Origin: Liolophura sinensis
Lineage: Eukaryota > Mollusca > Polyplacophora > Chitonida > Chitonidae
Direction of reading: 5' to 3'
Assembly (NCBI RefSeq): GCF_032854445.1
Contig: NC_088301.1
Span: forward strand, 56,248,512 to 56,312,511
Length of the DNA: 64,000 bases
Shown: positions 18,481 to 62,364 of the stretch, piece after piece
How positions within the stretch are numbered: the stretch's first letter is position 1
How the letters are laid out: the number at the start of each line of letters is the position of its first letter
The notes under the pieces: generated by a model
Told to the model about the DNA's origin: nothing
What the model saw: the letters and a program-made list of their open reading frames with translations, nothing else
The model's database searches: none
Position numbers and translations under genes: made by a program

Positions 18481-18519
18481 CCGGTCCCAATCGAGTTCCA
18501 TACTCTGATCTCCAGCCTG

Positions 18520-32843: not shown

Positions 32844-33970
32844 TCAACACATCAATAACATCAGTTCATGTATCTCTCTAACGCATTGGTATTCTGACTT
32901 GACGACCGCTGCGTTTGTCATTTCTGATTTGGATACACATTTGCTATCTTGTACCTGGACTTGTTTACTTTGAACCTGAGTTCTTATTGGTCTAGGTATT
33001 TTGCTTGGTGTTTTAACACTTCTATTTACAGGAATGCACATGTCCTCTATTAGTTCAAAATACTCATCAGGATTGTGTGCACTTGTCAAATACTCAGATG
33101 CCACTTCTGGTGATTCTCTAACTACCTGGTGGTTTCGCCTTAGCTCTGAACATGATTCTACTTTCACAACATAAGACCTTGGCTTTTCAGATTCTGTTTG
33201 AACAATACCAGGTTGCCATTTTCTTGTTCTTTTCTTGACTCTAACACTATCTCCCTTTGCTAAATTAGTCATTTGCCTTATATCTTTATCAAAGTAGCTT
33301 TTCTGAGATTGTTGGTTCTCATTTGAAGACATTTTAGTAGACCTGTCTACTATCTGGTGTTCTTGGCTTTAACATTGAGGATTTCATTGGCAACTTTGTG
33401 TTTAACCTGCGGCCCATTAACTGCAAAGGCGAATAACCTATCCCGTTTAGCAGCATGTTCTGTACACTAACAAAGCGTACATGGATCATCTGACTTTTTG
33501 ATCAAGTTTTTTAGTGTCTTAACCATGCGATCAGCTTGACCGTTTGAGTGAGGATATCTGGGGCTGCTTGTTGTGTGCGTAAATTCCCAAGTCGTGGAAA
33601 ACTTTCTAAACTCTGCGCTTGCGTATTGTGAACCATTGTCCGAAACAACTTTTCTAGGTATCCCGTGTCGTGAAAAGATCGACTTACGCGCGTTAATAAC
33701 TGTTTGCGCTCGTCTGTCTTTTCTCAAACCATACACCTCTGGAAATTTTGAATAGTAATCTACTACTATAAGGTATGACCTTGATATTCAACAAGATCTG
33801 AGGCCAGTTTTACCCATGGAGCATCTGGAATATCATGACTTATCATCGGCTCCCTATTTTGCTGTTTACACTTTCGTTGCACTTTCTACACTTTTGAACT
33901 ACTTCCTCAATTGATCTGTTAATTCGTGGCCAAAATATCGCTTCTCTTGCTTTGTTTTTACATTTTACCA
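32844..33970 (-). pseudogene. Integrase remnant (Ty3-like)
   Basis: HHCC region with CRKCN near 33870. The catalytic core has HGIPRKVVSDNGSQYASAEF (central Asp block) and SPRYPHSNGQADRMVKTLKN (the Glu position has become Asp in QAD). The C-terminal region (32844-33332) has LAKGDSVRVKKRTRKWQPGI, a known C-terminal fold of these integrases. Interrupted by stops near 33340-33460 and 33760. Confidence 0.85.
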
Positions 33971-34329
33971 CCTCCAAGTATGATTCATGATCTTTCTTTA
34001 ACATTTTCTTCCTCATTTTTGTCAGAATAACAACTTGCTCACATTTGAAAAGTACTCGGTCAACTACTCCTAATTCATCTTTAATGTTTCAGTATTCTCA
34101 CCACTCATGTGGGCAATCTTTTATCTCGATTGGCTATCCCTCTCGAGCAAGCGAAACTACTTTTGACAACGTTTTGTCATGCTGCGTTTCGTGTTTTAAC
34201 TTTTCAAACTATTCTGGGGAAAATGGGGTTGTTCCCTGACCAAAAATACTTTACGGGGTGCTTCTAACCGGCTACCTGCTTTCGGTAAGTAAGCTCTACT
34301 CAATGCATCTGTTAACCAGAGTTCTTTCC

Positions 34330-35310
34330 CTTTTTTTTACTTCACCTCTAACAGGTAAGGCGGTTTTCCGTCTTGTATCAACACGGAACCTAAGCCTTTT
34401 GAACTGGCGTCCACTGACAATGTGAGGGGTTTGTCTACATCGTAAAATGCTAACACTGGAGCTGTCGTGAGAAGCTCACATAACTTTGTGTAACATTTCT
34501 CATGTTTATCTGTCCATTCCCATTCTACTCCTTTCATTAACAGTTCTCTCAATGGGGCGTTTGCTCAGATAGATGGGGTATGAATTTGTGAATATATGTC
34601 AACATGCCTAGAAATCTCTGTAAGCTTTGTTTATCAGTCGGCCTTGGCATTTCTAACCCTGCCTTGACTTTTTCCGGATCTATTTTTAGACCGCTGTCTG
34701 TGTCCTAGATAAGCTCTCTCTGATTTTTTGAAGTCTAACTTGTCTTTGATCAGTTTCAGATTTCCTTTTCTCGCTATTTCTAGCACATGCTTTACTCTGC
34801 TTTCATGTTCTACATCCGTCTGTTCCCAAAACCAGAATATCGTCCATTACGACATCTACTCCTTCTAGGTCTTCAAAAAGTTCTGACATTCTAGCCTGGA
34901 AAATTTCTGGAATGCTGTTTATTCCAAATGGGGCTCCCAAAAATCTGTACCTTGCGAAAAGTACAGTATTCTGAACTTTTCTCATCTAATTTCATTGGCC
35001 AGTAGCCACTTTTGGCATCAAATTTAGAGAAATATCTACTCCCTGTAAGTTTTGTCCCCTCCTTCTCTATGATATTCATGAGATCTTTGTATTGCTTCAT
35101 TTAAATCTCTGAGTTCTAAGCATACTCTGAGGTCACCATTGGGTTTGACTACAGTTACAAAACTATTAACCCATTCTGTTGGTTCACTATGTTTTGTGAT
35201 CGCAATCAAGCTTTCCATTCTGTCTAGTTCAGCTTTTAGTTTGTCTTTCAGAGCTAGTGGTACAGATCTAGGTGGGTGTACTACTGGAGTAACATTTTCT
35301 TTCAACCTGT
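34330..35310 (-). pseudogene. Reverse transcriptase and RNase H remnants (Ty3-like)
   Basis: Pieces in order: TEWVNSFVTVVKPNGDLRVC, FSKFDAKSGYW, FLGAPFGINSIPEIFQ, VVMDDILV (the active-site block with Met-Asp-Asp). Then comes an RNase H start with LSVDASSKGLGSVLIQDGKP. At least four frame changes separate them. Confidence 0.85.
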
Positions 35311-35659
35311 CCCTGATTCCTCATGTTTCTCTACTTTTTCTTTCACTTTCTCTTGTTTACCTTGTTTTGCTTTTTGTGCACCTTTCTTTTCTATTGGTAC
35401 CCTTTCATGCTGATTTTTCTCTGTGATTACCGTGTTTACCCTCTTAATTATCTTTAACTCTTTTTCACAAAGGTTTGCACTCAAAACTGTTGGAGAATTA
35501 CCTTCTACCATGTGAAAAGTTATCGGGTGTAGCTCTTGTTTTCATACAAGATTTTCCTTGCCTTCTCTTTTCATTGTGTCTCCTTCCTCCACCACGCCAA
35601 CCGCTGTTAAATCGTCCTTTGTATTGTCCTCAACCTGGTGGATTTCTCTGCTGATTTTT

Positions 35660-36300
35660 GTTTGGACAGGACACAGAAAAATGTCCAAAGTTGGAACACG
35701 AAATATACCATTTTCCTTGCGCTGGACAATGTTTGTTTACATATACATGCCCACAGCTGTTACAATTGCCCTTGTTGGTTCCCATGGCTACCACGTGCAC
35801 TGGCTACTTCGGCTGACCTACTTCTGCATTGTTCATCACTTGCCTATGTCTGACTGTTGTCTTGTATGCACGACAAATGTTTATCGTTGCAGACAAATTC
35901 AAATCTGGCGTTCTCAACAGTCAAAGTCGAAATTTATCACTTCGGATACCACTGACAATTCTGCTGCTTATAAGCGTGTCTTTTAAGTCACCAAAATTAT
36001 AATCTTTGGCCATATATGTTAGCTGAGTCAAATATTTATCAAAAGTCTCATGTGGTTCTTGGGCTCCCGTCAAAAAGATGTGGTGATAGTAACTCAAATT
36101 CTGTGCTTGTGGTTGACAATACCTTTCAAATTTCTGTACGACTTTTCCATACCTCTCAAGATCTCCATCAGCATCTCCCGGTTCATCCCATTTCAGTCCA
36201 CTGAGCACTGTTATCGCTTCTTCCCCAGCAACATGTAGGAACCTGGCGATGCACGCTTTATCCGGTTTCTCAGCGATGCGGTCAAATACAGCTCAAATGT
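35660..36300 (-). pseudogene. Gag remnant of the Ty3-like element
   Basis: Capsid-like segment with KFERYCQPQAQNLSYYHHIF and FDKYLTQLTYMAKDYNFGD, typical of Ty3 Gag. A decayed zinc-knuckle region follows near 35670-35780 (CNSCGH, then CSNFGHFSVSCP, one Cys of the CCHC pattern replaced by Phe). Plus-strand ORFs over this region are antisense shadows. Confidence 0.7.
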
Positions 36301-37055: not shown

Positions 37056-37092
37056 CTATGTTTGTTGCCTGGACAGAGCAATGAAGATCAGC
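37056..37092 (-). CDS. IL-17R-like exon 2 (short, x-L-x-C motif)
   Basis: A 37-nt exon between a TTGTTGTAG acceptor and a GTGAGT donor. It enters in phase 0, matching exon 1, and leaves in phase 1, matching exon 3. It encodes ADLHCSVQATNI. The L-x-C-x-V pattern matches the start of the first extracellular domain of vertebrate IL17RA (GLNCTV). The plus-strand paralogue has an equally short exon with the same phases and pattern at 62337-62364. Because it is so small, the support is the phase chain and the motif rather than length. Confidence 0.75.
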
Positions 37093-40421: not shown

Positions 40422-40690
40422 TTATTTTATTTATTTATTTGATTGGCGTTTTTCGCCGTACTCAAGAATATTTCACTTATACGGCGGCGGCCAGCATTAT
40501 GGTGGGTGGAAACCGGGCAGAGCCCAGGGGAAACTCACGACCATCCGCAGGTTGGTGGCAGTCCTTCCCACTTACGGCCGGAGAGGAAGCCTACATGAGC
40601 TGGACTTGAACTCACAGCAACTGCATTGGTGAGAGACTCACGGGTCATTACGCTGCGCTAGCATGCTAACCAACTGAGCCACAGAGGCCC
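40422..40690 (-). mobile_element. Family-1 SINE, near full length
   Basis: All parts are present: TTTATTTATTTGATTGGCGT tail, GGCGGCCAGCATTATGGTGG core, ACCATCCGCAGGTTGGTGGC and the tRNA head (TTGAACTCACAGC, CTAACCAACTGAGCCACAGA). Confidence 0.88.
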
Positions 40691-41473: not shown

Positions 41474-41990
41474 ATCAATCTTCCCATTCTGCGTTTATCT
41501 TCTCATTCTGTGTCTATCTTCGCATTCTGCGTCTATCTTCTCATTCTGCGTCTATCTTCTCATTCTGTGTCTATCTTCGCATTCTGCGTCTATCTTCTCA
41601 TTCTGCGTCTATCTTCTCATTCTGTGTCTATCTTCTCATTCTGTGTCTATCTTCTCATTCTGCGTCTATCTTCTCATTCTGCGTCTATCTTCTCATTCTG
41701 CGTCCATCTTCGCATTCTGTGTCTATCTTCGCATTCTGCGTCTATCTTCTCATTCTGTGTCTATCTTCGCATTCTGTGTCTATCCTCTCATTCTGTGTCT
41801 ATCTTATCATTCTGCGTCTATCTTCTCATTCTGTGTCTATCTTATCATTCTGCGTCTATCTTCTCATTCTGTGTCTATCTTCGCATTCTGCGTCTATCTT
41901 CTCATTCTGTGTCTATCTTCTCATTCTGCGTCTATCTTCTCATTCTGTGTCTATCTTATCATTCTGCGTCTATCTTCTAATTCTGCGCTA
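41474..41990. repeat. 19-bp tandem repeat (about 26 copies)
   Basis: Unit TCTATCTTCTCATTCTGCG, with C/T variation at the CG/TG end and TC/GC/TA variation mid-unit. Because 19 is not divisible by three, all three plus-strand frames cycle through the same 19-residue Ser/Leu/Cys pattern and stay open for up to 156 codons. It is not a gene. Confidence 0.92.
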
Positions 41991-44760: not shown

Positions 44761-44856
44761 CCCAACATTACAATGAGATGAACAGTGGAAATTTGCGGAT
44801 GACAACGCGCAACAGGTGGCCGCCAACACCAAGGATACCCATGCACCCCCAGCCAT
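44761..44856 (-). CDS. IL-17R-like exon 1 (signal peptide)
   Basis: Thirty-two codons, from the ATG at 44856 to a clean GTAAGT donor directly after 44761, ending in phase 0. The peptide begins MAGGAWVSLVLAATCCALSS, a typical signal peptide with a hydrophobic core and a likely cleavage after SSA, followed by a short Cys-bearing stretch. The ATG follows purines (gggagATGG), a good Kozak context. About 70 nt upstream lies AAGATGGCGCT, a YY1-like motif that also opens an eight-codon upstream ORF, so some translational damping is possible. An alternative first exon may exist at 45141-45176. Confidence 0.8.
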
Positions 44857-45140
44857 CTCCCTCGATCGTTTACACCGCCACTGACGCTGTCTGCTGCACT
44901 ATCATTCATTCACGTAGGACAGCGCCATCTTGAGGTGGATACAAACACAACCGGATGTCCACTTAGGGGGGCGTCTTATAGTGACATAGAAGTGCTCGCA
45001 TATTGCTAAACGCTAAAGTGAAGCGGAATGCCTGGACACAACTATACCGAAACACCTTGAAAACATAGAAGGTGGTAAAATTTTACCTTAATTCAGGTCA
45101 AATAATACACAAGAAAATACTGATATAATAAAAGACTTAC

Positions 45141-45176
45141 AGCACATAGAGAGCAAAAGCAGAGCAGCGATGACAT
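45141..45176 (-). CDS. Candidate alternative first exon of the IL-17R-like gene
   Basis: ATG at 45176 opens twelve codons, MSSLLCFCSLCA, followed at once by a perfect GTAAGT donor in phase 0, the same exit phase as exon 1. Joined to exon 2 it would give a short hydrophobic leader upstream of ADLHC. It lies 285 bp upstream of exon 1, so it could come from an upstream promoter or be a chance ORF. No transcript evidence is available. Confidence 0.35.
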
Positions 45177-45287
45177 TGTGATTATCGGCAAATGGTCTTA
45201 CGAAATAAAGTTTGAAATATACCTTCGGCAGGGTTTATTCTAGCTGTTCGTGTAAATGTTCAAACTCGCTCTCAACATCATGTCTTA

Positions 45288-45937
45288 AGCTGAGATTCCA
45301 TATACGCGGTATGCGGTTTGCGGTATACCGCACGCGGTACGCGGATACTTCATACGGTATGCGCTTTCTCTGATTCCATTTATGCGGTAACGTGTGCGTT
45401 TTCTTTCTTTCATGGTGCGTTTTTATCAGAGCAAACATGTCGCATTCCTCCATTTCACGACGTGTGGCTTTAGAGCAAGATTCAGACCTTGCCATAATAG
45501 CAATGTCATATAAGTTGTTGCAACTAAAGAAGCGTAAAAAGAGAAAACACCGATGGTGGGTCCACAGTATTTTGCGGCAAAGAGCTCAGCAGGGAGCTTC
45601 CCATAACGTGGTCTCGGAATTGCAGCTGGATGGAGAAAAATTCCAACAGTACTTTCGTCTAACCAGAGAACAATTTAAACAAGTTCCGACCACGTGTCGG
45701 GGAAACACCCCACCAGTGACGTCATTTCTTGGGATACCCTGTCCGGTTTTGAAAACGCATACCGCACCGATCGCTACATGGTGCGATTGATTTTGCCGTA
45801 TACGTTTCCGCATGAAAAAAACGGATCCGCAGCCGTACCTATGGAATCATTGCAACTTATTTTAACTATTTCGATTTTTTGCCGCGTACCGCATACCGTG
45901 TACCGTATACCGCTACCGCATGTAAGGAATCTCAGCT
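45288..45937 (+). mobile_element. PIF/Harbinger-type element with partial transposase
   Basis: 650 bp flanked by TTA on both sides (45285-45287 and 45938-45940), the three-base target duplication of PIF/Harbinger. Terminal inverted repeats of about 55 bp begin AGCTGAGATTCC and are themselves made of CGCGGTATGCGGT-like palindromes. The interior keeps an ORF fragment resembling the start of a Harbinger transposase. It lies about 0.4 kb upstream of exon 1. Confidence 0.82.
45437..45790 (+). pseudogene. Truncated Harbinger transposase N-terminus
   Basis: From MSHSSISRRVALEQD the ORF reads a Lys/Arg-rich stretch, then RWWVHSILRQRAQQGASHN and LDGEKFQQYFRLTREQFKQV. This is the W-x-R plus F-x-x-(Y/F)-F-R-(L/M)-x-x-x-x-F pattern at the start of HARBI1-like DDE transposases. 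The catalytic domain is absent and the ORF runs into the right terminal region. Confidence 0.7.
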
Positions 45938-47271
45938 TTAAACAAAATTGCGAAAAGCCTGCAACAATAAACAGTTTAGTTGTGCGTGTCTTGTTCATGT
46001 CGTGTATGGCTGTGGCGTCACAATCACAGCGTCATCAACCTGAATTGTTGGCAAAGTAGCCTTTGTTTGAGTGGCGCTGGTACAACTCGACGTCTTGATG
46101 GGAGTGAACGTGTTCATGGTAAGGTTAACCACACGGATAAGTATTTACCTGTAAGTGTAGTAGCTGACTTTAAGAAATGTTTGTTCTCCCGCGAAAATCA
46201 AAAACGTCCTTTTGTTGAAACAGACTCGTAACATATAATATCTAAGTAGTATGCACCTAACAAATATGCCATAACAAAGATGTCAGTGAATTGTTTTATT
46301 ATTACTGTATTATCGATATGTATATTTTGTTCGGTTCCCTAACCATACTTCAAAGAAAAGCTGGAAAAACCGAGAAATACACTTTTGTGTGTGCGTTCTT
46401 CTGCATTCACCAACATGTGGAAAAAATTTGTGTTTCTAGAAACTATCATAAGCTTGTGAGTGTTAATATGTTCGATACATAAAACATGCAGCTTTGAAAA
46501 CATACAGAAACCCATTACATGCCTACATGCAGATAAAATACAGAGAACGATACATCGTTTTGTATTTTTCCTGAGATATTAGAGTATATATATTTGTGTC
46601 TGTCTCACGTCCAAGACTGAAGGATATTATATAACGAAAAGGTTCACAATTGAAAATATCATTGACGTAAATAATTATTTGCCAGCCCCTCTGGTATGCA
46701 CGGAACTTGACCGATAGGCCTATGCATACGCCTACCCTTTCAGATTTTAAGATCTTTACTTTAGTGACACTATTATAGACAAATAATATAGATATGTTAA
46801 AGTGCTAAGACCATTGAACAAGGTAAAGATAAAGTCATCACGGAATTCCAACTATATTTTAAAAAAGATTTGTTTTGATTAAAAGTTTCTTTGTGTTTCT
46901 TTGAGCATTAAGCATGAATGAAGAGATTTTCGGTTCACTATTTTATTTGTCAGCAGCAACACAACGTCATCTTAATTAACACAGTATACATAGGAAAAGC
47001 ATCATTTTAAATCTTTGTCTTGACGAAGACTCACCAGCGATCGAGCAATTGTTGATATGTCAAGTTCATCCATGTAAGAATACAGGTTTATAAATACATC
47101 TAATTTTTACCTTGGACATTGTTAATCCCACAATACAAAATATTACAACTTTATAAAAAAAAATTATACAGGAAGAATAATATGTGTTATCCGGCATGCA
47201 TTTATACGGTAAAACTGGAGTGGGGAAAAGGGGGCTCTGTGACCGAGGAGGTTTGCGTGCCATTTGAAATT

Positions 47272-47475
47272 GCGACGCATTGATCAGGACTCTCACCACT
47301 GCTGTCGCTATGACTTCCAGTCCAACTCATGCAGGCATCCTCTCCGGTCTTACGTGGGACGGTCTGTCGGCAACCTGGTGGAGGGTTTCCCACGGGTCCT
47401 TCCCACCATAATACTGCCCGCCGTGAAATTAAATATTGTTGAGTATGGCGTAAAACACCAAGGAAATAAATCATA
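47272..47475 (+). mobile_element. Family-1 SINE (diverged)
   Basis: Contains ACTCTCACCACTGCTGTCGC, CATGCAGGCATCCTCTCCGG, CCCACCATAATACTGCCCGC and the AAAACACCAAGGAAATAAAT tail. The tRNA head start is missing. Confidence 0.72.
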
Positions 47476-48572
47476 AATCAGTAGAGCCATTTTGGTATAC
47501 TCTTTTATTTATCTTCAATAGCTTATCTCCCATTAAAGGACAGTTAGAAAACCTCTTCCTAAAGCGGTTTTAGCGAGAAAATTAATATCAGCCGACTGAG
47601 CTTTATTATCATATAGCCCATACATCCCACCATGTTCAACGCCAGGCGCTGTACAGCCAAAATGCTATGATCTTCCTTCCGTCAATAGGAAGCTTGAAAG
47701 TTATGTCAAGACTACGATGTTGTTACTTTGAAGTAATATATGTAACAATTGATAATGCAGTTGTAGGGGCCTACTGTGAACCACGGAGGTTATTCTACAA
47801 CCGTGAGTGGGCGCATGCAACTTAATCACCGATGAAATGTTTTACATAAGCATTTGTCACTCTGAGCAGAAGTCCTCCAGTATAGCCACACAAGGGCTGT
47901 GTACAGAGCATGTCACACATGACCTCCATCTCCCTATACTCCACAAAGTCAGAGCGAAAAGCGCTCTGCTTCATGGTTGTGTCTAATTCCGCTTATCCCG
48001 GGGCGAGGGGTTTATATTCATCGTGTTGAATTAGATCGCTACTTTGGATATAAGAACACTTGCAATTAAATGGTAACTGCGATACATACTTTATTATTGA
48101 CAACTTGTATCGTAGCATGGTACACTGCTTGAATATTGATTTCACACATTCGTCTAGAGCATACCTTGCGTCTTTCCATGCGACATCATATGAACACTGT
48201 TGACTGCTTCTCTTCACATGATTCCGTCCTAATTTAATGCTGTATATACCTTCTTAGTTTTTTGGTGGTCTTTGTTAAACGTCATCTTGGGAATTGGCCT
48301 TGAGTGTATTCACCAAGCTATCTTAGCACTGAGTCAAAATTTTAATCATTATCTTTGAATGTTCCTTCCCGTTATTTTAGCTGAAATTTGTCTGGCAATT
48401 TATAACGTTGTCAAACAATGTTTTGACCTTGTTACGTTTATTTACGAGCCACGTCTTTAAATATTGTATTATATTTTTTTATTTTGTCAATGCCTGACCT
48501 GTATTTTCCCATTGTGTACGGTATGGCCTGCACTGGATCCTATATTGTTATGAACCGACTCTCCTTTGGAAG

Positions 48573-48842
48573 CGGGGACCTCCGTGGCTCAGTTGGTTAG
48601 CGCGCTAGCACAGCGTAATGATCCAGGAGTCTCTCACCAATGCGGTCGCTGTGAGTTCAAGTCCAGCTCATGCTGGCTTCCTCTCCGACCGTACGTGGGA
48701 AGGTCTGCCAACAACCTGCGGATGGTCGTGGGTTTCCTCCGAGCTCAGCCCCGTTTCCTCCCACCATAATGCTGACCGCCGTCGTATAAGTGAAATATTC
48801 TTGAGTACGGCGTAAAACACCAATCAAATAAATAAATAAATC
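48573..48842 (+). mobile_element. Family-1 SINE, full length with intact tRNA head
   Basis: Best copy on the plus strand. The A-box TGGCTCAGTTGG lies at about 48585, the B-box-like GAGTTCAAGTCC at about 48653, then the core and a tail ending AATCAAATAAATAAATAAAT. The polymerase III boxes remain recognisable. Confidence 0.9.
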
Positions 48843-49086
48843 CTTTGGAAGCCGGAATGTACCATCCGGATTAAGGCGCTATCTTCAGGAAGAGACCATA
48901 TCTTTGTCATTAGTTGTATTGTTTTGTATATTATTGTCAGTTGTATTATTTGTATATTTTGTTAGAATATATGTGTTGAACTTATTCAAGTGTCTTCGTG
49001 TTACTTTGTTTCATCTTGTGTAAGGCTTGTCTCTGATCTGAGAGTTAAACAAGCCAATTGTTTTTCATCTTTACTCTGCGATAGTG

Positions 49087-49560
49087 GTACCCTTAGATCA
49101 AACTTTCGAATCGGACAACTCAAGTCAATGTCTACCATGTTTGGAATTTTTTTTTCAACCTCGGGCATGGTGATGGGCCGCGAAAATGTTATCCTACCCA
49201 ACATTCTGTTTGAGAATTGCATGCCCTAGTAAACTGAATGTTCTGTGGCATGAAATTTTCGCGGCCCACCACCCTACCCGAAGATGAGAAAAAAATTCCA
49301 GTCATGTCAGACACTGATTGGAGTTGTCCGGATAGAAAGTTTAAACGGCTGGATCAATGTTGAAAGATGGTTTACCAATGCTGGCTTTGACATATTACAT
49401 TCCGGGCTTTTTAAGGAATCGGTGGATAGCAAAAATAAGCTAGGATTCAAACCGGGGTTTTTTTTAGTGAAATTGTCCGCGTTGATGTCTATGTGATTAA
49501 AGCTGGGTGTTACGGTAGGAACGTCCAGCTTAGCTTTGGGCTACCCTAACATTACATTAG
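49087..49560. repeat. Foldback-family repeat, copy 1 (rearranged)
   Basis: The left part is inverted relative to the right. CCAAACATGGTAGACATTGA is found on the minus strand near 49130, and the right part reads GGAGTTGTCCGGATAGAAAG onward. The plus-strand ORF GFDILHSGLFKESVDSKNKL is shared with both arms of the copy at 58436. Confidence 0.6.
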
Positions 49561-51096
49561 ATATAACAGTTTTAAAGCGATTTGAAATATTGACCTAAAT
49601 CTAAGATGTCTTCGTGATCCCGGGGCATGGAACGTCCTTTCAGCTGGTAGATGAGTGTCTGTTTCGACGCACAGTTTGTATTTGTTAGAAAGTGCAACTC
49701 CATCTATTAAATGAGGATTTCTTTTTTCTGGAATAAGTGAACTAGCATCCATACAAGAATGCCTCAAGAGCACGGAGCCTTCGTCGAGCGGATGGCAGTA
49801 CATGGAACATTCTCGGTAGGACACCTAGACGCTTTTTGCCGGTTTGTAAAGATGGAACTAACTTCACACATTACATAACTGCAACGAACATGCTGGTCCT
49901 ACCTAGTTGTCGTATACTGAGTTAATTCACTGTCAAAGTTTTATAAAGCGTATCTTTATCCTGCAGCCGATTCTATACACTTGATTGGCTGAAAGGGGTC
50001 ATGTGATATCCGTTTAGATGTCAATAAATCTGAGAGCCAGTGGGGAATTATTCGGTGGACGTTTTGCTGCTAACGCCTCCTGAAACGTATATAAATAGGC
50101 CCTCTTTTTGCCTCCCGTTCACCTTGATTGGTCTCATGTTTGTGGCAAGTGCGATGTGATTTGGGTATTAATAATATTATGACAATTAATAACAGGAAAG
50201 TATATAAGTGAACACCAATGCCTTTCTCTGCACGTCTTAATGTCTTAATGTCAGCATTTCCTGTAAGTGCCAAATTGCTGCAACATGCGAGAGTCAACAT
50301 CTTAAAATACTGTACGACATAAAATGCTAGTAGTTGTTTGTAGGTTGAACATATTATTAGACTACAATATTTAACATTTATAACGCGTTAAACAACGACT
50401 ATAGAAGTATTAATTTGGCACAAGATATTGTTAGATTACAACATTTTCTCTGCATATTGCAAATAAGACTTTACAAAGTGTTAACTGTCAGTGTCAACAC
50501 TGTCAATGTTTGACTTAACATTATAAAGGTTATATATAACAATTTACCCTATATTACATTAATTCCTGTAAATGAGTTTTACCTTTAGTTAAATACTAGG
50601 GAGAAATAACCTGGATTTCAACAGAATGAAACACACTATATCTTACTTTGAAATTGGCTAAAGCATCTCGTTGAACTCCGTCCTTCGCGGAATTCCAGAA
50701 TGTTTGGGGAGTATATTTCATTGGGGCTGTAGGGACCGTATACTAAGGTTGAATTATATTTCTATACGTTGGATATAGGAAGATCTACATTCAAAGCATG
50801 CGATACATGTACATGATTTGATTATTGACCACTTATCTATCACCATGGTGCACGATTTGGTTACTGATCATTGAAAGCTGTTGACTGCTTTAATTCTGTT
50901 TGCATGCATGCATCCTTCATTATTTATTAATTGAAAAACACGTTTTTAGTTCTTTGGTGGTTTGCGTTGAACATTATTCTGGAAATTGATCTTGCGATTA
51001 CTGATCTGGAATGTTCATTTTTGTTTACGGCTGGTATACGGATATCGGATTTGGTACCTACATTTTAAGAATTAATGAACAACAATTACAGCATTG

Positions 51097-51855
51097 TGCG
51101 GACCCGTAAAAGTCACATGGTGAAAATAAAATTTTTGGAGTAGAAAAAAAATTTTTTGGAAGACAAAAAAAAAAGACATGGTGAAAATAACTTTTTGGGA
51201 AAAGAAAATCTTCTTTTCATACCCCGAGTTTATAATGTACGAATTTGGTTGACGGGCACGACTATGTGTACGCAGAAACAGAGACCTACTGAAAAAATAA
51301 AAGAGTAGGCCTACACCGCTTTAGACCCACTTGTGATAGGCGGACAATGCATTTCCATATATCAACGAGGCAGCTTATTTAATGAATAGTTTCCAAAGAG
51401 ACATATATGGACTAAATAAAAATAAAATACAAAATATAGTGTGCAGCCCCGCCATTATATAGGACCAAAAGCCTTAGCTTGATGTCACATTCATATCCGA
51501 GGACGGCAGTGATAAGTTTTAACCTTATCTTATTATTTGCTTGAATGTTTACTGTATTAAATAATAGTCCCAGATTGCCAGAGGTTATACTATGAATCGT
51601 GTTGGCGTTCCTCGTCGTCTAAAAGAACATCTTGGGACTGAGAAAGTATAATTTGCAAGCGACAAAAGTTAATTTGTAAAAATATTATGGCATGCAGTAG
51701 ACCCCGATATATAGCGTAACTCTTATGATTGGTCAATTATGTCGGTGCCCCGACTTTCAAAAGACAGGGGTTAAAAAAGGACAATTTATTTTTCACCATG
51801 TAATTTTATTTTCTCTTCCAACATTTTTTTCACAATGTCACTTTTACGGCTGCGT
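51097..51855. mobile_element. hAT-like non-autonomous DNA element
   Basis: Flanked by CAGCATTG on the left and TAGCATTG on the right, seven of eight bases equal. Inverted ends are TGCGGACCCGTAAAAGTCAC and, at the right, the inverse of GTCACTTTTACGGCTGCGT, both followed inward by ATGGTGAAAA / ATTGTGAAAA. No ORF of note. The 8-bp duplication points to hAT, but the termini are diverged. Confidence 0.55.
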
Positions 51856-53284
51856 AGCATTGCGGCATATCCAAGGATATATTTACCGACTACAGATATA
51901 CTGAATAAATTGATGGCATCTATATAGTTGAGGATCGTTGTGTGTGTGTATTTACTACAAATGGTGGATTACACAGGCCAGCACCTTTGCTAAATACAGA
52001 TCAGTTTTATATAACCGAGGCGTTGGCTTCGTAGTATTTATGGGTTTAATTTGCTTATTAGCACATGTATATACTGCGCGTAACTGATGATTATGTAGAT
52101 AAAGGCATACAGACTATTTAGCATCATGTCCCAATATCGCTGTGAAAACGTTGGCTCCGCATAAGTTCCTTAATAATTCGTTCTTTGAGAAAGGTACAAA
52201 ACAAACTGAAAGGACTCAAATTTTAGCCCTATTTTAAAATGTAACGCACCTTAAACACAGTATCGAAGTCAGGAGATCTGCATGCGATCAAACTCGCGTG
52301 GGGTAATAGCAAAGACTTCTAAAAATGGTAGTTCTTGCCTCGCTTAGCGCTCAGTACTGAGGGATTACAGCCAGGAAAGGGGACAACGGCATGGACTCAC
52401 CCTGTCACTATAGAAGACACACTATCTATAAACACACACAACGAAAGACTCCTCCTCATGATATACGACTGACATGAAAAGTTGTTATGCATGACGTAAA
52501 AACCAAATCATACATACATTCCTTTACAAATTGGTCGCCCTTGAATGTGACTAAGCTGACTAAGGGAGGTTATCTCCGTAGGTGTCGCTTTGGACTGTTT
52601 GAACGTGGAAATATTAGACACAAACATGGCGAATCCCTGGCATAGACAGCGTGAAAACGGAAGAATGTAGTGAAGCCCCAAAAAACGATATGCAGTTTAT
52701 TATTGTCTTAATGTAACATGCAAATATTTACATTTATATCTCTCTGTATAAGCCGCATATATTTTGTGACTGTGAGTGGCGTAACTTTCCTGGGTTAAAG
52801 TAAATAGTTTTCTTCGTTGACACGGCTTGCTCTCGAGTCATTCTTTCAATATGCTTTCTTCGTTTTTACTTTATCTGTTTTGTTCTAATTTATTTAACTA
52901 ATCATGTATTTGATTAACATATATGTGCTAGCACAAATTGTACTGTCTCTTGCTTGTCATAACGGAGAATGTGTGATGTAAAGCTGACATGTAAAATGTT
53001 GTCGTTTTATTTTGTTTTCAGTCAATCACGTACAGAAAGTATCACGTACTGACCGTATCACGTACTAAACGCAGAGCATTGACGGACAGAATGTAGCCCA
53101 AAGTATATCAGTAAATGCCAAGAAATCGAACTAAGTGCACTGAGTTCTTTATTACCAACCATTACACTACGTGTATAAATGAAACCCACCTTGAAAACGG
53201 GCTGTTTCATAAAAATGCTGCAAAAAGCACAATCATCTCCAAGGAATGCAGGCAATGGCAACAATCCATAATATTCCAAAAAGA

Positions 53285-53515
53285 TCCAGGAACCTTTCAC
53301 CAGTTGATGCGGTTCAAGTCCAAGTCATGCTGGGTTCCTCTCAAGTCGTATACGTGAGAAGGTCTGCTATTATCTACGGAGGGTCGTGGTTTTGTCCCGG
53401 ATTCTGCCCGGTTTCCTCTCACCATATATAAGCCTGATATGGGGCGCAGCCGTGTTATTGAAACATTTTTGGGTACGATCTTTGAAAACCACCAACTAAA
53501 GTAGATCTGTTACAG
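53285..53515 (+). mobile_element. Family-1 SINE (strongly degenerate)
   Basis: CCAGTTGATGCGGTTCAAGT, TCATGCTGGGTTCCTCTCAA and CGGTTTCCTCTCACCATA are recognisable. The tail is decayed. Confidence 0.6.
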
Positions 53516-54122
53516 GGCTACCAAGCAGTATGCACGAATGGTTTTCAGCTTCTTCAGTATGGAGAAATTTGCGACATGACAATGTGTCGTTCAGCAAAAC
53601 GTGCAGCGAAGCACATTCAGCTTTGGGAAATCATAGACAGTTCACTATGGGTGGTTCCAGAGCATCTAATTGTCTAGTTACCTCTGAGTCTATGTAGGTA
53701 AAATCTGTTGACTTAAATTTCTATTTCTGAAATAGCCGGTAATGTCATTTAAATATTTCTAGCGAGAAAACTATTAACTGCATGTAACTCAGCCGTGTGG
53801 TACATGTCATGGAAAGTGCATACAGTTTGGTAAGATTGATTTAGCTTTCAGTTTTTAGCTTTCATAGTTTTACCCATGGATTAGTTTATTTCACAAAATC
53901 TCTAAAAGTTACAAACACAGACAAAAAACAAAACATATTCGGAATAATCGGCCTGAAATACATCACAGTTATATCAAAATTCGAAACTTTATGACGTCGT
54001 ATATTGCACAATCGCGAGCCTCCAAAGTTTTTCACGGATTTTAATATCCTTTCAAACGTTATGTATGCATATAAAATTTCAGAAGGGCCCGTCATTGGAT
54101 CTTGAGAAAATGTATAATATAA

Positions 54123-55885
54123 TTAAGATAGACGTAGAGAATAGACAGAGAAACCGGCGACAGTGGGATAGACGTACAGCACAGCGAGAGAAACCGACCA
54201 CAGTACAATACCCCTACAGCACAGAGAGAAAAACCGATGACAGTGCGATAGACGTGTAGCACATAAAGACAAGCCGACGACAGTGTGATAGGCGTACAGC
54301 ATATAGAGAGAAACTGACGAGAGTGTGATAGACGTACAGCATAGAGTGAGAAACCGACGACAGTGTGATAGGCGTACAGCACAGACAGAGAAACTGACGA
54401 CAGTGTGATAGACGTACAGCACAGAGACAAACCGACGACAGTGTGATAGACGTACAGCACAGATAGAGAAACCGACGACAGGGTGATAGACGTACAGCAT
54501 AGAGAGAAAAAACCGACGGCAGTGTGACAGAGGTACAGCACAGAGAGAGAAACCGAAGACGGTGTGATAGACGTACAGAATAGAAAGAGAAATCAGAGCA
54601 ACGACAACAGTGTGACAGACGTACAGCACAGAGAGAAAAACCGACGACAGTGTTACAAACGTACAGCACAAAGAGAAAAACCGACGACAGTGTGACAGAC
54701 GTACAGCACAGAGGGAGAAACCAGAGCAGCAACGACAGTGTGACAGACGTACAACATAGAGAGACAAACCAGAGTATCAATGATAGTGTGACAGACGTAC
54801 AACATAGAAAGAGAAACCAGAGTAGCAACGACAGTGTGATAGATGTACAGGATAGAGAGTAAAACCAGAGCAGCGACGACAGTGTGATAGACGTACAGCA
54901 TAGAGAGAGAAAGCAGAGTAGCAACGACAGGGTGATAGATGTACAGCATAGAGAGAGAAATCAGAGCAGCAACGACAGTGTGACGAACGTACAGCATAGA
55001 GAGAGAAACCAGAGCAGTGGCGACATGTAGTGTGATAGACGTACAACTTAGAGAGAGAAACCAGAGCAGCGACGACAGTGTGACAGACGTACAGCATAGA
55101 AAGAGGAACCAGAGCAACGACGACATGCAGTGTGATAGACTCACAGCATAGAGAGAGAAAGCAGGCCAGCGATGACCGTGTGACAGACGTAAGGAGAAAA
55201 ACCAGAGCAGCAACGACAGTGTGACAGACGTACAGCAAAGAGAGAGAAACCAGAGCAGCGATGGCAGTGTGATAGACGTAGAGAGAGAAACCAGAGTAGC
55301 GACGGCAGTGTGACAGACGTACAGCAAAGAGAGAGAAACAAGAGCAGCGATGGCAGTGTGATAGACGTAGAGAGAGAAACCAGATTAGCGACGGCAGTGT
55401 GACAGACGTACAGCACAGAGAGAGAAACCAGAGCAGCGACGGCAGTGTGACAGACGTACAACATAGAGAGAGAAATCAGAGCAGCAACGGCAGTGTGGTG
55501 GATGTACAGCATAGAAAGAGGAACCAGAGCAGCGACGACATGCAGTGTGATAGACGTACAACATAGAGAGAGAAACAAAAGCAGCAACGACAGTGTGACA
55601 GACGTACAGTATAGAGAGAGAAACCAGAGCAGCGACGGCAGTGTGATAGATGTACAGAGAGAAACCAGAGCAGCGACGGCAGTGTGATAGACGTACAACA
55701 TAGAGAGAGAAACCAGAGCAGCGACGACAGTGTGATAGATGTACAACATAGAAAAAGAAATCAGAGCAGCAACGACAGTGTGACGGACGTACAGCATAGA
55801 GAGAGAAACCAGAGCAGCGATGACATGCAGTGTGATAGACGTACAGCACAGAGAGAGAAACCAGAGCAGCGGCGACAGTGTGATA
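54123..55885. repeat. Minisatellite with 39- and 48-bp units
   Basis: About 40 units. The left third uses a unit of about 39-41 bp (AGAGAGAAACCGACGACAGTG + TGATAGACGTACAGCACAG, approximate). The rest uses a unit about 9 bp longer with an extra CAGAGCAGC after AAACC. Some units carry an added ATGCAG. Both unit lengths are multiples of three, so long open frames (up to 236 codons, minus strand, Cys/Leu/Ser-rich) arise on both strands. These are repeat artefacts. Confidence 0.9.
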
Positions 55886-56349
55886 TAGCTGGCAAATGGT
55901 CACGCGTAAAGGGTGAAACAGAGCCCCTTGTCAATTTACCTCATTTAAGGTTTTTTTCTAACTGTATATGCATAAACATTAGCAAAGTACGTGCCCCCTA
56001 GCACTATAGTTTGAGCGGAATTAGGTAAACATTATTTAGTCATAACAGGACACAATAGGTGATTTGCAGATCTGCTGAATCCGTTCTACCGAGGTTAAAC
56101 TCATTTGCGTGTAGAGAATATACATGACTTATGCCTGTGCATATTTATGCACACCCTATATACGCGTATTTGTATTCAAGTAAATACGTGTACTCTCAAA
56201 AAAATACTTTGTTAAGTTTAACAGAACTATAAAAAAAAACTATAAAAAAAACACCTCTCTACACAGATAGGTCTACACTTTGTAATGTTTAGTAATATGC
56301 CATACAAAGTTTGGTATTGCATTTTGAAAAAAGGTACCGTATATATAGA

Positions 56350-56622
56350 TTTTTTTTTTTTTTTTTTTTTTTGATTGGTGTTTTAAGCCGTACTCAAGAA
56401 TATTTCACTTATACGACGGCGGCCAGCATTATGGTGGGTGGAAACCGGGCAGAGCCCGGCGGAAACCCACGACCATCCGCAGGTTGCTGGCAGACCTTCC
56501 CACGTACGGCCGGAGAGGAAGCCAGCATGAGCTGGTCTTGAACTCACAGCGAAAGCATTGGTGAGAGGCTTCTGGGTCACTACGCTGCGCTAGCGCGCTA
56601 ACCGACTGAGCCACGGAGGCCC
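56350..56622 (-). mobile_element. Family-1 SINE, full length, oligo-T left edge
   Basis: A young-looking copy: a run of about 23 T (56350-56372), then GATTGGTGTTTTAAGCCGTA, the intact GACGGCGGCCAGCATTATGG core and a full tRNA head (GCGCGCTAACCGACTGAGCC). The long homopolymer and close match to 40422 and 48573 suggest recent insertion. Confidence 0.9.
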
Positions 56623-56803
56623 CCGCCGTATATATAGAAGACCACATTTGTTGGAAGAAAGGTTATCTTGGGAAAATGGTGTTATAACTTGGCAAATTAT
56701 TTCCTTTCGTCTTTGGAGACTACCCATTATGTCAAACTGGTATCTGGGATTAGGAGATACGTCTATCTTAACAATCCCAGGTGCAAACTATATAAACTTT
56801 ATA

Positions 56804-56806
<3 letters not shown>

Positions 56807-56870
<64 letters not shown>
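56807..56870. repeat. (TA)n microsatellite
   Basis: About 31 uninterrupted TA pairs. The Tyr-Ile ORFs running through it are artefacts. Confidence 0.95.
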
Positions 56871-56874
<4 letters not shown>

Positions 56875-57040
56875 CATCAAGAAAGACTTATATGCATGAA
56901 TACAGTATATATTTGTAGTTACATGTTAACAGACGCTTTTACAGTAGCAAATTTCGTCTGAGACACCTGTGTGGCACGCGATCTGAAGAAATGATGTCAA
57001 AATATATCCTCTAAGCCAGTAGTTCACCACCTGAAACTTT

Positions 57041-57231
57041 TATACGCCCCCTTATTGATGTGACGTCAACGTGACGTCTCAAGAGGGCCATATGATTGGT
57101 GAAGTCCAAGATACTCGCCGAATGGCTTCGAAGAGGACTAGGCTGTGGTAGGGATAAATGGTGTGACGGGTTTCATAGCTGTTTACACTTGAACCACTTT
57201 CATCACTAGCGTAAGTCTGACAGCGGCACAA
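57041..57231 (+). promoter_or_regulatory. Putative promoter of the plus-strand paralogue with tandem CRE motifs
   Basis: A full palindromic cAMP-response element, TGACGTCA, lies at 57061-57068 and a near copy, TGACGTCT, at 57072-57079, about 11 bp apart (one helical turn) and about 160 bp upstream of the start codon. This fits CREB/ATF-type binding. No TATA box is evident. The transcription start was not located. Confidence 0.4.
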
Positions 57232-57360
57232 ATGGCGGGTCGCTGGGCCAGTGATGGCTACTCGTTGACATGGACACTGGTGTTAGGGCTGACAGTCATT
57301 AACTCTGTATGCCCTGCTAAGGACGAAGCAGTGCTTACAAATTGCACCGCCAAATACCAG
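57232..57360 (+). CDS. IL-17R-like paralogue, exon 1 (signal peptide)
   Basis: Forty-three codons from ATG (context acaaATGG) to a GTAAGT donor at 57361, ending in phase 0. The peptide starts MAGRWASDGYSLTWTLVLGL and continues through a hydrophobic core to NSVCPAKD, then Cys-bearing NCTAKYQ. This is a signal peptide plus the first mature residues with one glycosylation sequon. The start MAG, the phase and the placement mirror exon 1 of the minus-strand gene, and the two are transcribed away from each other. Assignment to the IL-17R family is by homology of exon structure, since its SEFIR region lies outside the window. Confidence 0.75.
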
Positions 57361-58435
57361 GTAAGTGGAAACTACATGTACTAAAGTCAGTCCTCGTGGA
57401 TGCTTGGTACAGCTTAAACACTACCACATCCGGGTTATGTGACCCAGATTTGAAGCACTTCGTACCATTTCTAGTAGTTTTATGGCATTTTATGATGACG
57501 CGCAATCTGTAATATGTGAAGAGCATGGGTGTTACAACTTGGTTTTGGCATCGTTCATAAAATATGTGCTCAATCTTAACAAAGTGCCCAAAACGGGTGA
57601 CAGCTTGAAAATAAAGTAAAGCAACTTAACACAAGCATGGTAGCATAAGATAGGCCAATATGAGAACATCAATAATGACCGCAAGAGGCAATCAAATCCA
57701 GTGAATCAGACTTTTAATACTGTCAAGTAATAAGCTTCCCTTCAATGTTGAAGACTTCCAGCTCTTATATACAGTGTATCACAGGCCTGATCAACTATAT
57801 GATGGCCTTATAGGTTTGGACTGATTGCATTCAAACATAGCATTTTAAACCTCGGGCATGACAACTTAAATTTAGAATGTTAAGTTGATGAATCGATTTT
57901 TATTATCGCATCGGCATATTATCGCATCGGCATATTATGCCCAAGAGATTCTGATTATGCCAGCCATTTCTGGTTTCCATGGCAAAAAAACCTAAAGTTT
58001 TAAATTACAGAATGTGATCAGAAATTCAACTGCTTCAGACTCTTCCAGTTTAGGCTGAAGCTGTTGAAAAACAATTTCTGGTTTACATGGCAACATTGAA
58101 AATAGCAAGTTTCAACAAGGTGATTTGCAAAAAATACATCGTATTAGGCTTTCAAATTTGATATGTAGGTTTACATTGAACTCCTATTTAAACTGGGGCT
58201 GGTTAAATCAAGTTTATAGATATATTACTAAAAAATTATCATGGAAGTAATTATGATGAGTATAAATTTGAAAATTCTAGAGTGCCTTGTTATAGTAAAT
58301 GGGATAAAAATGGTTAAATATTCAAATTGTCACATGATTCAGTACGATTTCAAATCGAAACTCCCCTGTTATTTTTCGAAGGCTTTATTCCAGATCATGC
58401 CCTGATGCAACACTGTCAGGCTCTGTGGTTGTATT

Positions 58436-58935
58436 AGCCTAAAGCTAAGCTGGACGTTCCTACCGTAACACCCAACTTTGCTCATATAGACTTCCACGCG
58501 GACAATTTCAATTCCAGAAAAAAATGGCTCAAACACTACTTTAGTTATGCTATCAACTGATTCCCTAAAATGCTGGAAATGTAATATGTCAAAGCCAGTA
58601 TTGGTACCCAACCCACCCAACATTCTGTTTACAGGGCATGCAATCCTTAAAGAGAATGTTGGGTAGGATAACATTTCAGGGAACATCACCAGGGGAGGAA
58701 CTTGAATTCCAAACATGGCAGACGTTCGTTTGAGTTGTCCAATTCAAAGTTTAAGCGGCTGGATTACTGTGGAAAAGTGGTGTACTAATATTAACTTTGA
58801 CATATTACATTGCGGGCGTTTTAGGGAATCAGTGGATAGCAAAACTAAAGTAGTGTTTGAGCCATTTTTTTTTAAAGTGAAATTGTCCGCGTGGAAGTCT
58901 ATATGAGGGAAGCTGGCCATTATTGTAAGAACGTA
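58436..58935. repeat. Foldback-family repeat, copy 2 (palindromic)
   Basis: The left arm (58436-58620) is the inverted copy of the right arm (58770-58935). Both carry TTTAGGGAATCAGT(T/G)GATAGC, TAAAGTAGTGTTTGAGCCAT and AATTGTCCGCGTGGAAGTCT. Each arm encodes the same peptide core, FRESVDS-x-TKVVFEPFF. It is separated by about 150 bp containing CCCAACATTCTGTTT and its inverse. Confidence 0.75.
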
Positions 58936-61914
58936 TTGTAAGACAAGTATTTGAAGTTAAAGGCTGCATGCGTGACCATGACCCCAAGAAGTTAGGTCTG
59001 CCCATTATCAGAGCGTAATGTCTGTGAGGGCAAAGGACATTGACTAGGATATATGCTGGCAGTGGCAGAATGTTGCAATCACAAGACAAACCAAGTTGGC
59101 TTTTACAGCGTGCCTGCCATCCTCAGACAAGCAGTAGGGCGTCGGATTCTTGATTCACCTCAATATAGCTGCCTACACAATAAACCCACCTGATACCATA
59201 ATTGATTTTTATTTTTAAGGTTTTCTCCACTGATAAAACTGACAAATGTCTTATAAGAAAAGATTTCTTGAGTACAGTGTGGAACACAAATCAAGTATGT
59301 CTGCATCAATAAAACACTGTTTATTTTGCAACGTCCTGACAATAAAAATTTGTTTTCACTACTTTTTATTGGACTCTTTGACAGTTCAGTGACTGTTTTG
59401 CCCTTAAAGTTTGGTGTGTAAAAGTGCACTTTCTGAAGCACACACTTTTGAGGTCAACAGCTAATTTTTTTTTAATTAAAAATTAATAAAACTCTTAAAT
59501 AGGCGTATAAGGTAGGTGAATCAATCAGAATCAAGACAAAATGCTTAACTTCGGTTGAAATACTGTAAATATACTTGTCCAGTGAAGGACAACTTTTCAT
59601 GTATACCGGTAATTTGAAACAGAAAACAGATAACTCATACATTTTAATATTAGTCTGCACATAGTATTTTTATATGTGATGTGGTCACATTAGTTGTGTT
59701 TAATGATTTTTTCTAGACACATATGACATATAAGAACATATAGGCTTCCAAAGGTTTTATCTGCTTGACCAGTATATGAAACTTTATTCTGTGCTAAAAA
59801 GTTAAATAACTATTATAATAAGTCTATTATTTTATAAAATGTTTCACATTAAGCCTGTTGTAGTGTGTACGTAGTTCCAAGATCCAATAAAACAACGCTG
59901 TCCAGGAGTTGCCATCCAAATTGTCTACAGTCTAAAATGAATGTCCTGTTAATGTTAAGTTGACAGCCTATTAACTGGGAAACATTTTGTTAGATTGTTA
60001 TCTGTTTTTCTCTGTTTTTGTAAGACAGGGCTGTGTGTAATTGACTCAGCAGACACTATTGATTGCCTGTCTGGTTATAATAAATTAACATGGCGATATT
60101 TGGTGTCTATGATCTCTGTGATAATGTTCTTTACTGCTAGCGGTTGACATTAAAACAGTACAGCTCATATGTTACAGTCTCTTTCCATTGGATTTCCTTG
60201 GTGATAGATGATCAAACCTTATAATGAAGTAAGAGCATTAGCCAGAAAACCACCAGGAAATGATTTCGTTAGTACATAGCACCGTTGAATAATAAGAGAT
60301 ATGGTCATAGCCTGGGGGAAATAGGAAAGATTGACATCCTGTTGTCTTCCTCTGTTTTACCCGTCCAGTTTATGCAGGATGTGCCATTAAGCCTTTTGGT
60401 ACAGTTCCGAAGTTGTCTCAATTCTTGGTCCGAAAAAAGGAAATAAATACATTGTGTCATTATGAGAAGCCTAAGGGAGGAATAGGGTAACCAGGAACAT
60501 AGCTTCAGGGTACATGAACATGTCCTGTACAGTTCCTCCCTTTTCTAATGGCAACCTCTAAAGTCCTGCTGGAATACTTAGGTGTTTTATTTTTCAGGCC
60601 TAGTATTCTTATCAGCATAAGCCAGTCCAGAAAGAAATGGATATAGGTTTTTTCACATATTGAATGATATTCCAAGTAACCATTGTGTCTGTATCACACA
60701 AGAGTAATACAGGTCCTGTTTGATGTCAGTTTTTTTTTAGATATTATAACCTGTCTTAACCAAGTCTCTGCGTTTCGTGTAGCCCAACACTGTTGATCGA
60801 ATAGTCATAAGTAATTATGTATATTCTGAAAGGTAAAGGACATGTACAAAATACATTTAAAATTTATTTGACTTGCGTGTTAGTGAAAATAAGGAGCAGA
60901 TTGACAAAAATCAATTGTTTTTCAAAATGTCATTTTCTATCTGTAAAATTTGAAAACATACACAATTTTTGATCTGCTTCCACAAAACCTTGCCGGTCTT
61001 ATTTTGCAGTATTTTTCATAAAAGACATTCTCTAGGTTTTAAACCCATAAAGTGATGTCATGTATGAGAAGCATGTTGAAAAATTGACTTACAGAGATTT
61101 GTGGAAGTTCATCCTGGTTTCAGCTACAAATGTATCAAATTGTAGGCATTATTTTGAAAAATATGTGAGGAATAAAAAGTATCTCAGGGAAATGGAGAAA
61201 TTGACCAAAATATCTTGACAGATCTGGTAATTAATTAATTTGCAAATTCATCTTGAACAGGTCAGCCTACTTTTTTTTTACAGTTATATTGCTCTATATG
61301 AAAGCGTAAATAGGTGTTTTACATTGATCGTTTTGAGTAAAACTTGCTTGTCGCCATTGGCACCCCTGTGGGGTAATCAGGCTGTTGTTTTTTAGAACAC
61401 GTATAAGGCCTACACTGCTTGCTTGGGCAGAGGTTTGCACAAGCAGTGATTCACAGTTAATAGATATATGCTAGCAGGAAACAGCATTTACCAGAGGCAC
61501 GTCTTTTTACAGCAGTTAATCTTCACCAAGGGTTTAAAGCCTTGGTTCACAAGAAGTTCTGCTTTTTGTCAAATTTAATGTATTGAAATTTGCGTATTAA
61601 TGTATTCAAATTTGGGTTTATCCCTAAGTGAGAGGAGAGGTATAAGACAAAGGAGAATAAAAAATTAAAGATAAGGAAAATGTGAAGAGGAAATGCGACA
61701 TGAAACAAAGAAAAAAAGCTGATTTTTAGGACTAGTATTTTTAAAACCCAACACAAATTCCACTTCATGAACATGCAGGATTGAATACAAGAGTGGCATT
61801 TCAGACAAGTGTACAAGGACTGTAGCTGTGTAACCATTCCCAAACTGATATGGATGACAAGATATGGATATTCAAACTTTACACATGTACTTTTACATGC
61901 CATCAAAAATACCT

Positions 61915-62105
61915 ACATGTAATTCTTCAACCTTTTTAACCGTCTCTCCAACCAATATTTTGAAAAATATGGAGAGAACTGGGGTACAGAGAAATAATTT
62001 ATGCTGTTTAATGAAGCCAGCATCTTTAGTTTCACTTTCATACTAATTGTATGCATAAATTTCTCTGAAAAAAAGTGTTTTAGTGGTTGAAAAGGCTGAA
62101 GATTT
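61915..62105. repeat. MITE copy 4 (degenerate)
   Basis: Left end TGTAATTCTTCAACCTTTTT. Right end GTTGAAAAGGCTGAAGATTT. The interior is largely replaced. It lies about 230 bp upstream of exon 2 of the paralogue. Confidence 0.6.
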
Positions 62106-62336
62106 ACACTACGTAAATGAGTATTGTTAGTTATTTTAATATTTTGAGAACACCAGGTTCAACAGGACTTCCGGTGTGAATTCTTGTAGAATTTGATATA
62201 TTTTTTTCTGCTTGAGTTGACATTTGAAAATATACCAGGAGCAAACACAAAGTCCAGTTTTATTGTGGAAAGTTAAAACACAAGCACTTCTTACTTTGTT
62301 CATACATGTGTAATGTACTTTTTTTTTTCTTTTCAG

Positions 62337-62364
62337 CCTAACCTGCAGTGTGAAGTGTTAGAGA
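62337..62364 (+). CDS. IL-17R-like paralogue, exon 2 (partial gene, continues right)
   Basis: A 28-nt exon after a long pyrimidine tract and TTTTCAG, with a GTAAGT donor. It enters in phase 0 and leaves in phase 1. It encodes PNLQCEVLE. With the last residues of exon 1 this reads YQPNLQCEV, close to the SQPGLNCTV start of the vertebrate IL17RA ectodomain and parallel to ADLHCSV in the minus-strand gene. The third exon is not visible before the window ends. Confidence 0.65.

Follow-up and report, generated by a model that had tools for sequence, protein, structure and literature searches.

The DNA analysed here (the window) is a stretch of 64,000 nucleotides (nt) of Liolophura sinensis, C7:56248512-56312511, from a 609-Mb genome in 632 contigs. 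Two genes run away from each other within it, one on each strand, and both are very probably genes of the IL-17 receptor type. Their start codons, at 44856 on the minus strand and at 57232 on the plus strand, have 12,375 nt between them, confirming the initial annotation, which had described two genes diverging from a 12.4-kb spacer. A further 30 kb beyond the window was read, and positions above 64000 carry the window numbering on past its right end. We refer to the two as the minus gene and the plus gene, and describe their exons before turning to what the encoded chains may be, how the pair may have arisen and how it compares with receptors described elsewhere.

Two head-to-head genes and their exons

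The exon models of both genes, whose splicing is predicted from the sequence, are as follows. The minus gene comprises:

44761-44856, minus strand: exon 1, 96 nt, signal peptide MAGGAWVSLVLAATCCALSSANFHCSSHCNVG, ATG at 44856, donor GTAAGTAG, ends in phase 0
37056-37092, minus strand: exon 2, 37 nt, ADLHCSVQATNI, donor GTGAGT, phase 0 to 1
25508-25648, minus strand: exon 3, phase 1 to 1, first half of a probable fibronectin-III-like domain D1 (NWPGKPEHL...VNITWRTPSD), placed by splice sites and phase
23627-23742, minus strand: exon 4, 116 nt, phase 1 to 0, TGFEVSLNLIG...CYVFNLT, placed by its blastp match to the plus gene
22644-22773, minus strand: exon 5, phase 0 to 1, DSVFTLQCQVPAKAEGIFTQLYSLPKPKK, ranked first in the minus-strand exon scan
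15146-15248, minus strand: candidate last ectodomain exon, phase 0 to 1, placed by splice and coding score only
14204-14332, minus strand: transmembrane exon, phase 1 to 1, GLSVTVVAVLVIIIVLILCLVFIAVYRRIR, donor GTAAGTGA, hydrophobic run read by eye
5171-6174, minus strand: last exon through the stop codon, entered in phase 1, coding for a putative diverged SEFIR-like domain followed by a tail, acceptor score 6.6

The plus gene comprises:

57232-57360, plus strand: exon 1, 129 nt, MAG..., signal peptide, donor GTAAGTGG, ends in phase 0
62337-62364, plus strand: exon 2, 28 nt, PNLQCEVLE, acceptor cttttcag, donor GTAAGTAC, phase 0 to 1
74041-74211, plus strand: exon 3, beyond the window, phase 1 to 1
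75526-75641, plus strand: exon 4, 116 nt, beyond the window, phase 1 to 0
76532-76670, plus strand: exon 5, beyond the window, phase 0 to 1
near 77988-78067, 79136-79189 and 79731-79839, plus strand: later ectodomain exons, beyond the window
83870-84076, plus strand: transmembrane exon, VIGSVTGVLAAVLLIIVLVFIVQKY, phase 1 to 1, segment read by eye
84922-85017, plus strand: juxtamembrane exon, beyond the window
86775-88078, plus strand: last exon, SEFIR, starts in phase 1, gene end at 88078

Both genes open with a MAG signal-peptide exon ending in phase 0 and continue with a tiny exon of phase 0 to 1 bearing an xLxCxV motif (37 and 28 nt), just as had been noticed from the sequence at the outset, and exons 1 and 2 of both have GTAAGT or GTGAGT donors. 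The agreement does not end there. Exons 1-5 have the same order and the same phases in the two genes (0; 0 to 1; 1 to 1; 1 to 0; 0 to 1), exon 4 is 116 nt long in both, the YSLPKP of minus exon 5 is common to plus exon 5, the transmembrane exons are 1 to 1 in both genes and both last exons start in phase 1. Minus exon 5 lay outside the training set of the coding score used in the exon scan; that score was trained partly on both last exons, on plus exons 3 and 4, on the plus transmembrane exon and on minus exon 3, so that the scores of those exons are inflated. Each gene has a single transmembrane segment, read by eye: that of the minus gene lies in the exon 14332-14204, and that of the plus gene, between ectodomain and SEFIR, lies in an exon 21.5 kb past exon 2.

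The match extends to sequence. Local alignment of the spliced exons 2-5 of one gene with those of the other scored 145, whereas the best of 2000 shuffles reached 55, and MAFFT gave 38% identity over exons 1-5. In a blind blastp search of the open reading frames (ORFs) of one region against those of the other, the pair formed by the two fourth exons came eighth (41% over 41 amino acids, E 3.6e-6). Seven rows rank higher: six belong to copies of a single interspersed element, and one is an unassigned match in an intron. For minus exon 4 there are five possible phase-0 ends that lie 60 nt or more into the exon and keep it open; the one giving the best alignment was adopted. Its donor (AGG/GTCATT) is weak, but the four alternative ends score 98-138, still above their shuffles.

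The tiny exon itself is a less secure part of this comparison. Downstream of exon 1 on the minus strand, a scan for open phase-0 segments of 22-69 nt that lie between AG and GT and contain LxCxV yielded 34 candidates when splice quality was disregarded, among which 37092-37056 is the only one with a GT[A/G]AGT donor; the other 37-nt candidate, 11117-11081, has GTGAAG. MAFFT, unlike the local alignment, pairs the minus LHC with the LMC of plus exon 3, which counts against the proposed correspondence; the xLxCxV match therefore depends on the aligner and is not solid alone. Two unrelated genes could in principle agree in their first two exons by chance: the MAG start that they share is by itself too short to serve as evidence, xLxCxV is short as well, loose candidates for the short exon are numerous and the short exons were not paired by MAFFT. 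Such a coincidence is scarcely credible when exons 3-5 also match in phase and sequence. As judged from the sequences, the homology of the two genes does not hinge on the short exon but is seen across exons 2-5 together.

Ectodomains and last exons

The ectodomain of the minus gene is the one that leads directly to known receptors. Searched against PDB, its exons 1-5 returned eight rows with E no higher than 10. Seven of these are IL-17RA chains (E 0.0018-0.0033), so alike that they are not independent matches; the eighth is unrelated (E 0.76). In the alignment DLHCSV, encoded by the short exon, falls opposite GLNCTV of IL-17RA, and YSLPKP falls opposite HHLPKP. The xLxCxV motif of the minus gene would thus mark the point at which the first receptor domain begins, where the initial annotation had expected it, and on this side the expectation held. 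In Pfam the same exons match ILCR1_N (E 1e-5, 25.9 bits, under the cut-off of 27) and IL17R_fnIII_D1 (E 2e-4, 21.5 bits, under the cut-off of 26). Taken together, the PDB rows and the two sub-cut-off Pfam matches agree in identifying the first domain of the minus chain as fibronectin-III-like of the IL-17R type.

The plus ectodomain is homologous to this minus ectodomain, which matches IL-17RA. Several observations nevertheless weigh against so simple a picture of the two ectodomains. By themselves, plus exons 1-5 match no Pfam family (0 at E up to 1), and their 4 PDB rows at E up to 1 include no receptor. A direct join of plus exon 5 to the exon at 77988 would create a stop, and at least one plus exon is therefore missing from the gene model. 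Second-domain exons of the minus gene were looked for and not found. Separately, part of the plus gene's second-domain exon is repeated in tandem at about 78249-78326, within 77988-78420; this copy looks like a dead exon, having lost its acceptor AG and having a stop just upstream (by eye).

That the plus gene is a full receptor had been proposed from its first exons only, and the DNA beyond the window bears this out. A SEFIR domain lies downstream of 62364 at C7:56335315-56335755 (plus strand), 24.4 kb past exon 2, 22.8 kb past the end of the window and on the same strand, and the transmembrane and juxtamembrane exons precede it in phase. It is the best match of a genome-wide SEFIR search (E 7.8e-19), and the last exon scores 73.8 bits against the Pfam SEFIR model (cut-off 23, E 2.3e-20). 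In PDB the same exon matches IL-17RA (4nux, E 9.4e-11, query residues 9-211), IL-17RB (3vbc, E 6.9e-5) and a chain named IL-17RB/IL-17RA (9ot1, E 1.2e-18).

The last exon of the minus gene is a more difficult case, and most routine comparisons speak against a SEFIR there. Pfam finds none in 6174-5171, and a PDB search with this exon found no IL-17 receptor. In a single blastp comparison with the plus SEFIR the exon shows 20% identity over 120 amino acids (E 0.009), and hhalign of a two-row SEFIR alignment against it finds the right register with a probability of 1.1. A local hidden Markov model built from four SEFIR sequences gives it 3.9 bits, a score exceeded by 4 of 2000 shuffles, by one unrelated ORF and by a SEFIR fragment on C6. 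On the other side stands an end-to-end profile alignment of the minus segment, with a z score of 6.8 against 300 shuffles and of 6.5 against 1000 shuffles, none of which did as well. In the same test three true SEFIRs, left out in turn, reached 13.9, 13.5 and 16.0, and the negative controls (n=26: 15 ORFs, 7 fragments taken from tails and from a C6 ORF, and 4 reversed sequences) reached at most 3.66. This result too has to be read with care: the control ORF at 3.66 also beat all its 200 shuffles, and the end of the minus segment was set by eye at the WF motif, which may flatter its z score. The segment ends in KWFRKRY, the others in NWFEDMY, DWFECENLY and EWIYKLL. AlphaFold2 in single-sequence mode gave predicted local distance difference test scores of 35.5 for the whole exon and 38.2 for the SEFIR part, too poor to use. 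The tail contains one PxExx[aromatic/acidic] motif (PCEQTD), which we take to be of the TRAF6 type; the plus tail contains 0.

Altogether the profile comparison suggests that the minus last exon encodes a highly diverged SEFIR. The earlier proposal that both genes are IL-17-receptor-like stands for the plus gene through its SEFIR and for the minus gene through its ectodomain, while a SEFIR recognised by Pfam is lacking in the minus last exon. The minus gene might instead be a decoy or dead receptor, whose ectodomain binds ligand and whose cytoplasmic exon signals no longer, as its SEFIR falling below Pfam detection could indicate. We consider this improbable: the last exon has an open frame of 353 codons, and the SEFIR-like layout is kept from end to end with the WF motif behind it (KWFRKRY beside NWFEDMY), which suggests constraint.

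Origin of the pair and proposed roles

The genome-wide SEFIR search found four matching places in three loci, the first of which is the plus gene. The others are:

C7:47370675-47371088: a receptor-like SEFIR locus
C6, two neighbouring pieces, one under the cut-off: a split SEFIR locus

By the look of its sequence the split locus is possibly an Act1-type adaptor. Identities among SEFIR sequences are low throughout: 15% between plus and minus, 24% between plus and IL-17RA, 22% between minus and IL-17RA and 18% between plus and L004.

We favour, with some confidence, the view that the two genes arose by an old local inverted duplication of one ancestral receptor gene. The initial annotation had likewise pointed to a divergent local duplication; the homologous ectodomains and shared phases agree with this, the SEFIR tree does not, and the claim is best called likely only. 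The tree of both SEFIR domains that had been suggested as a check was run with five sequences, and plus and minus are not sisters in it. It tells against the duplication by joining minus to IL-17RA and IL-17RB (support 0.86) instead of to plus; the minus branch in it is 2.15 long, and the support for IL-17RA with IL-17RB is only 0.52. Two much older receptor types that are now, or always were, neighbours would account for this grouping and this long branch, as well as for a SEFIR identity of only 15%, with no duplication in this lineage. We regard that history as rather unlikely. The two genes agree in the phases of exons 1-5 and in the size of exon 4, and no shuffle comes near the alignment of their exons 2-5, whereas five short and diverged sequences make for a weak tree, as its low support for the IL-17RA and IL-17RB pairing illustrates. 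In addition, an ectodomain search of the 33.6 kb upstream of the SEFIR ORF at C7:47.37 Mb found nothing better than E 0.30, although the ectodomain of that locus may lie further off or be too diverged. Because this third receptor-like locus lacks any better ectodomain match, a local duplication of the pair becomes likelier.

The explanation that we prefer as a whole, and hold to be somewhat better than an even bet, is that the locus encodes divergent single-pass receptors of the IL-17 type, one canonical and one with a diverged SEFIR, which descend from an old local duplication. One ancestral receptor gene would have undergone an old local inverted duplication, leaving two divergently transcribed single-pass receptor genes. 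The plus gene would encode the canonical chain, in which an ectodomain and a transmembrane segment are followed by a SEFIR of the IL-17RA type and the stretch after it. If this chain works as known IL-17 receptors do, secreted IL-17 dimers would be its ligands and a SEFIR adaptor would be recruited to it. The minus chain would have the same first ectodomain region, a transmembrane segment and a SEFIR diverged past recognition by the family model, and its most likely role would be that of second subunit in a heteromeric receptor. Its co-receptor role is put forward tentatively, and for both chains ligand binding, pairing and adaptor use are what such a model would predict.

A more specific arrangement can be imagined, in which a canonical SEFIR chain and a linked, drifted partner form a dedicated two-chain unit, the partner using another adaptor or restraining its neighbour. 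We give this little weight. Were it true, surveys made with SEFIR models would overlook a whole class of partner chains in invertebrates. In any case the pair represents new members of a known receptor family and is a fairly ordinary gene pair; its interest lies in the shared exon anatomy, in an ectodomain traceable to IL-17RA and in one chain that is invisible to a standard SEFIR search. If such chains are common, counts of invertebrate IL-17 receptors, which are set against many ligand genes, would be too low.

Surroundings, other IL-17 components and known systems

The region between the two genes is made up as follows:

44857-57231, no strand: spacer between the start codons, 12,375 nt, with minisatellites and an inverted-repeat element

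Minisatellites occupy 54127-55885 (units of 40-89 nt, 1.8 kb of the spacer) and, within the minus gene, 41478-41987 (19-nt units). Near the minus start, 45281-45944 holds an element of 0.66 kb whose ends are imperfect inverted repeats (31 nt, 84%) and which contains an ORF with RWWVHSILRQR; Pfam found nothing in it, and it reminds us of elements of the PIF/Harbinger type. A spacer of 12.4 kb that carries minisatellites and such an inverted-repeat element would speak against a simple promoter common to both genes. Retroelement-like ORFs are found at 15880-19128 (plus strand) in a large intron of the minus gene and at 33467-36292 (minus strand) inside the same gene. In the former, one of the three ORFs scanned with Pfam weakly resembles a reverse transcriptase (E 1.8e-4, below cut-off) and the other two gave nothing; in the latter, one of two matches the integrase core (53.1 bits) and the other gave nothing. 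The stretches 40430-40690, 56350-56625, 29907-30088 and 79243-79478 are apparent copies of one short interspersed element.

Elsewhere in the genome, 15 places match the IL-17 ligand model with E no higher than 1; 13 of these exceed the cut-off and 11 of the 15 are on C10, and these counts are lower bounds. Two ligand clusters, C10:19314886-19342827 and 34741850-34803736, hold four matches each in mixed orientations. Set against them are two receptor SEFIRs that Pfam recognises, the split SEFIR locus and the minus gene with its putative diverged SEFIR. The expansion of IL-17 signalling to which the initial annotation had appealed is thus seen among the ligands, with 13 matches over cut-off, and not among Pfam-visible receptors. 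Pfam IL17R_fnIII_D1 had no match in the whole genome, a result that does not show absence.

The closest relatives in our comparisons are the IL-17RA chains (7uwm_C, 4nux_A, 9ot1_B and others), which are presumably mammalian. The xLxCxV start and the LPKP end of their first domain recur in the minus gene, and their SEFIR with the stretch behind it recurs in the plus gene; the present pair differs in its low identity, in a minus SEFIR unseen by Pfam and in its head-to-head arrangement. In a literature search that left out most subscription papers, no paper was found on invertebrate IL-17 receptor genes arranged head-to-head. The ILCR-1 type receptor, which is of nematode origin, provides the best Pfam match of the minus ectodomain through ILCR1_N (under cut-off, as given above).

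Among molluscs, the available text on mussel describes IL17R isoforms A-F with a SEFIR and a transmembrane region and up to 11 exons (PMC8353272), and gives no gene orientation; a transmembrane region and a SEFIR, in the minus gene a putative and diverged one, are common to those isoforms and to this pair. In that text the mussel reference genome has 8 receptor genes on 5 scaffolds beside large ligand expansions, and sequences were picked by BLAST and PF08357 (PMC8353272); a gene like the minus one would be missed by the PF08357 model. For the sea urchin, the accessible part of another report gives two SEFIR receptors, IL17R1 and IL17R2, beside 35 IL-17 ligand genes, describes no paired arrangement of them, and states that its authors did not detect Act1 in echinoderms (PMC5457136). 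In contrast to what is described there, a separate split SEFIR locus exists in the present genome.

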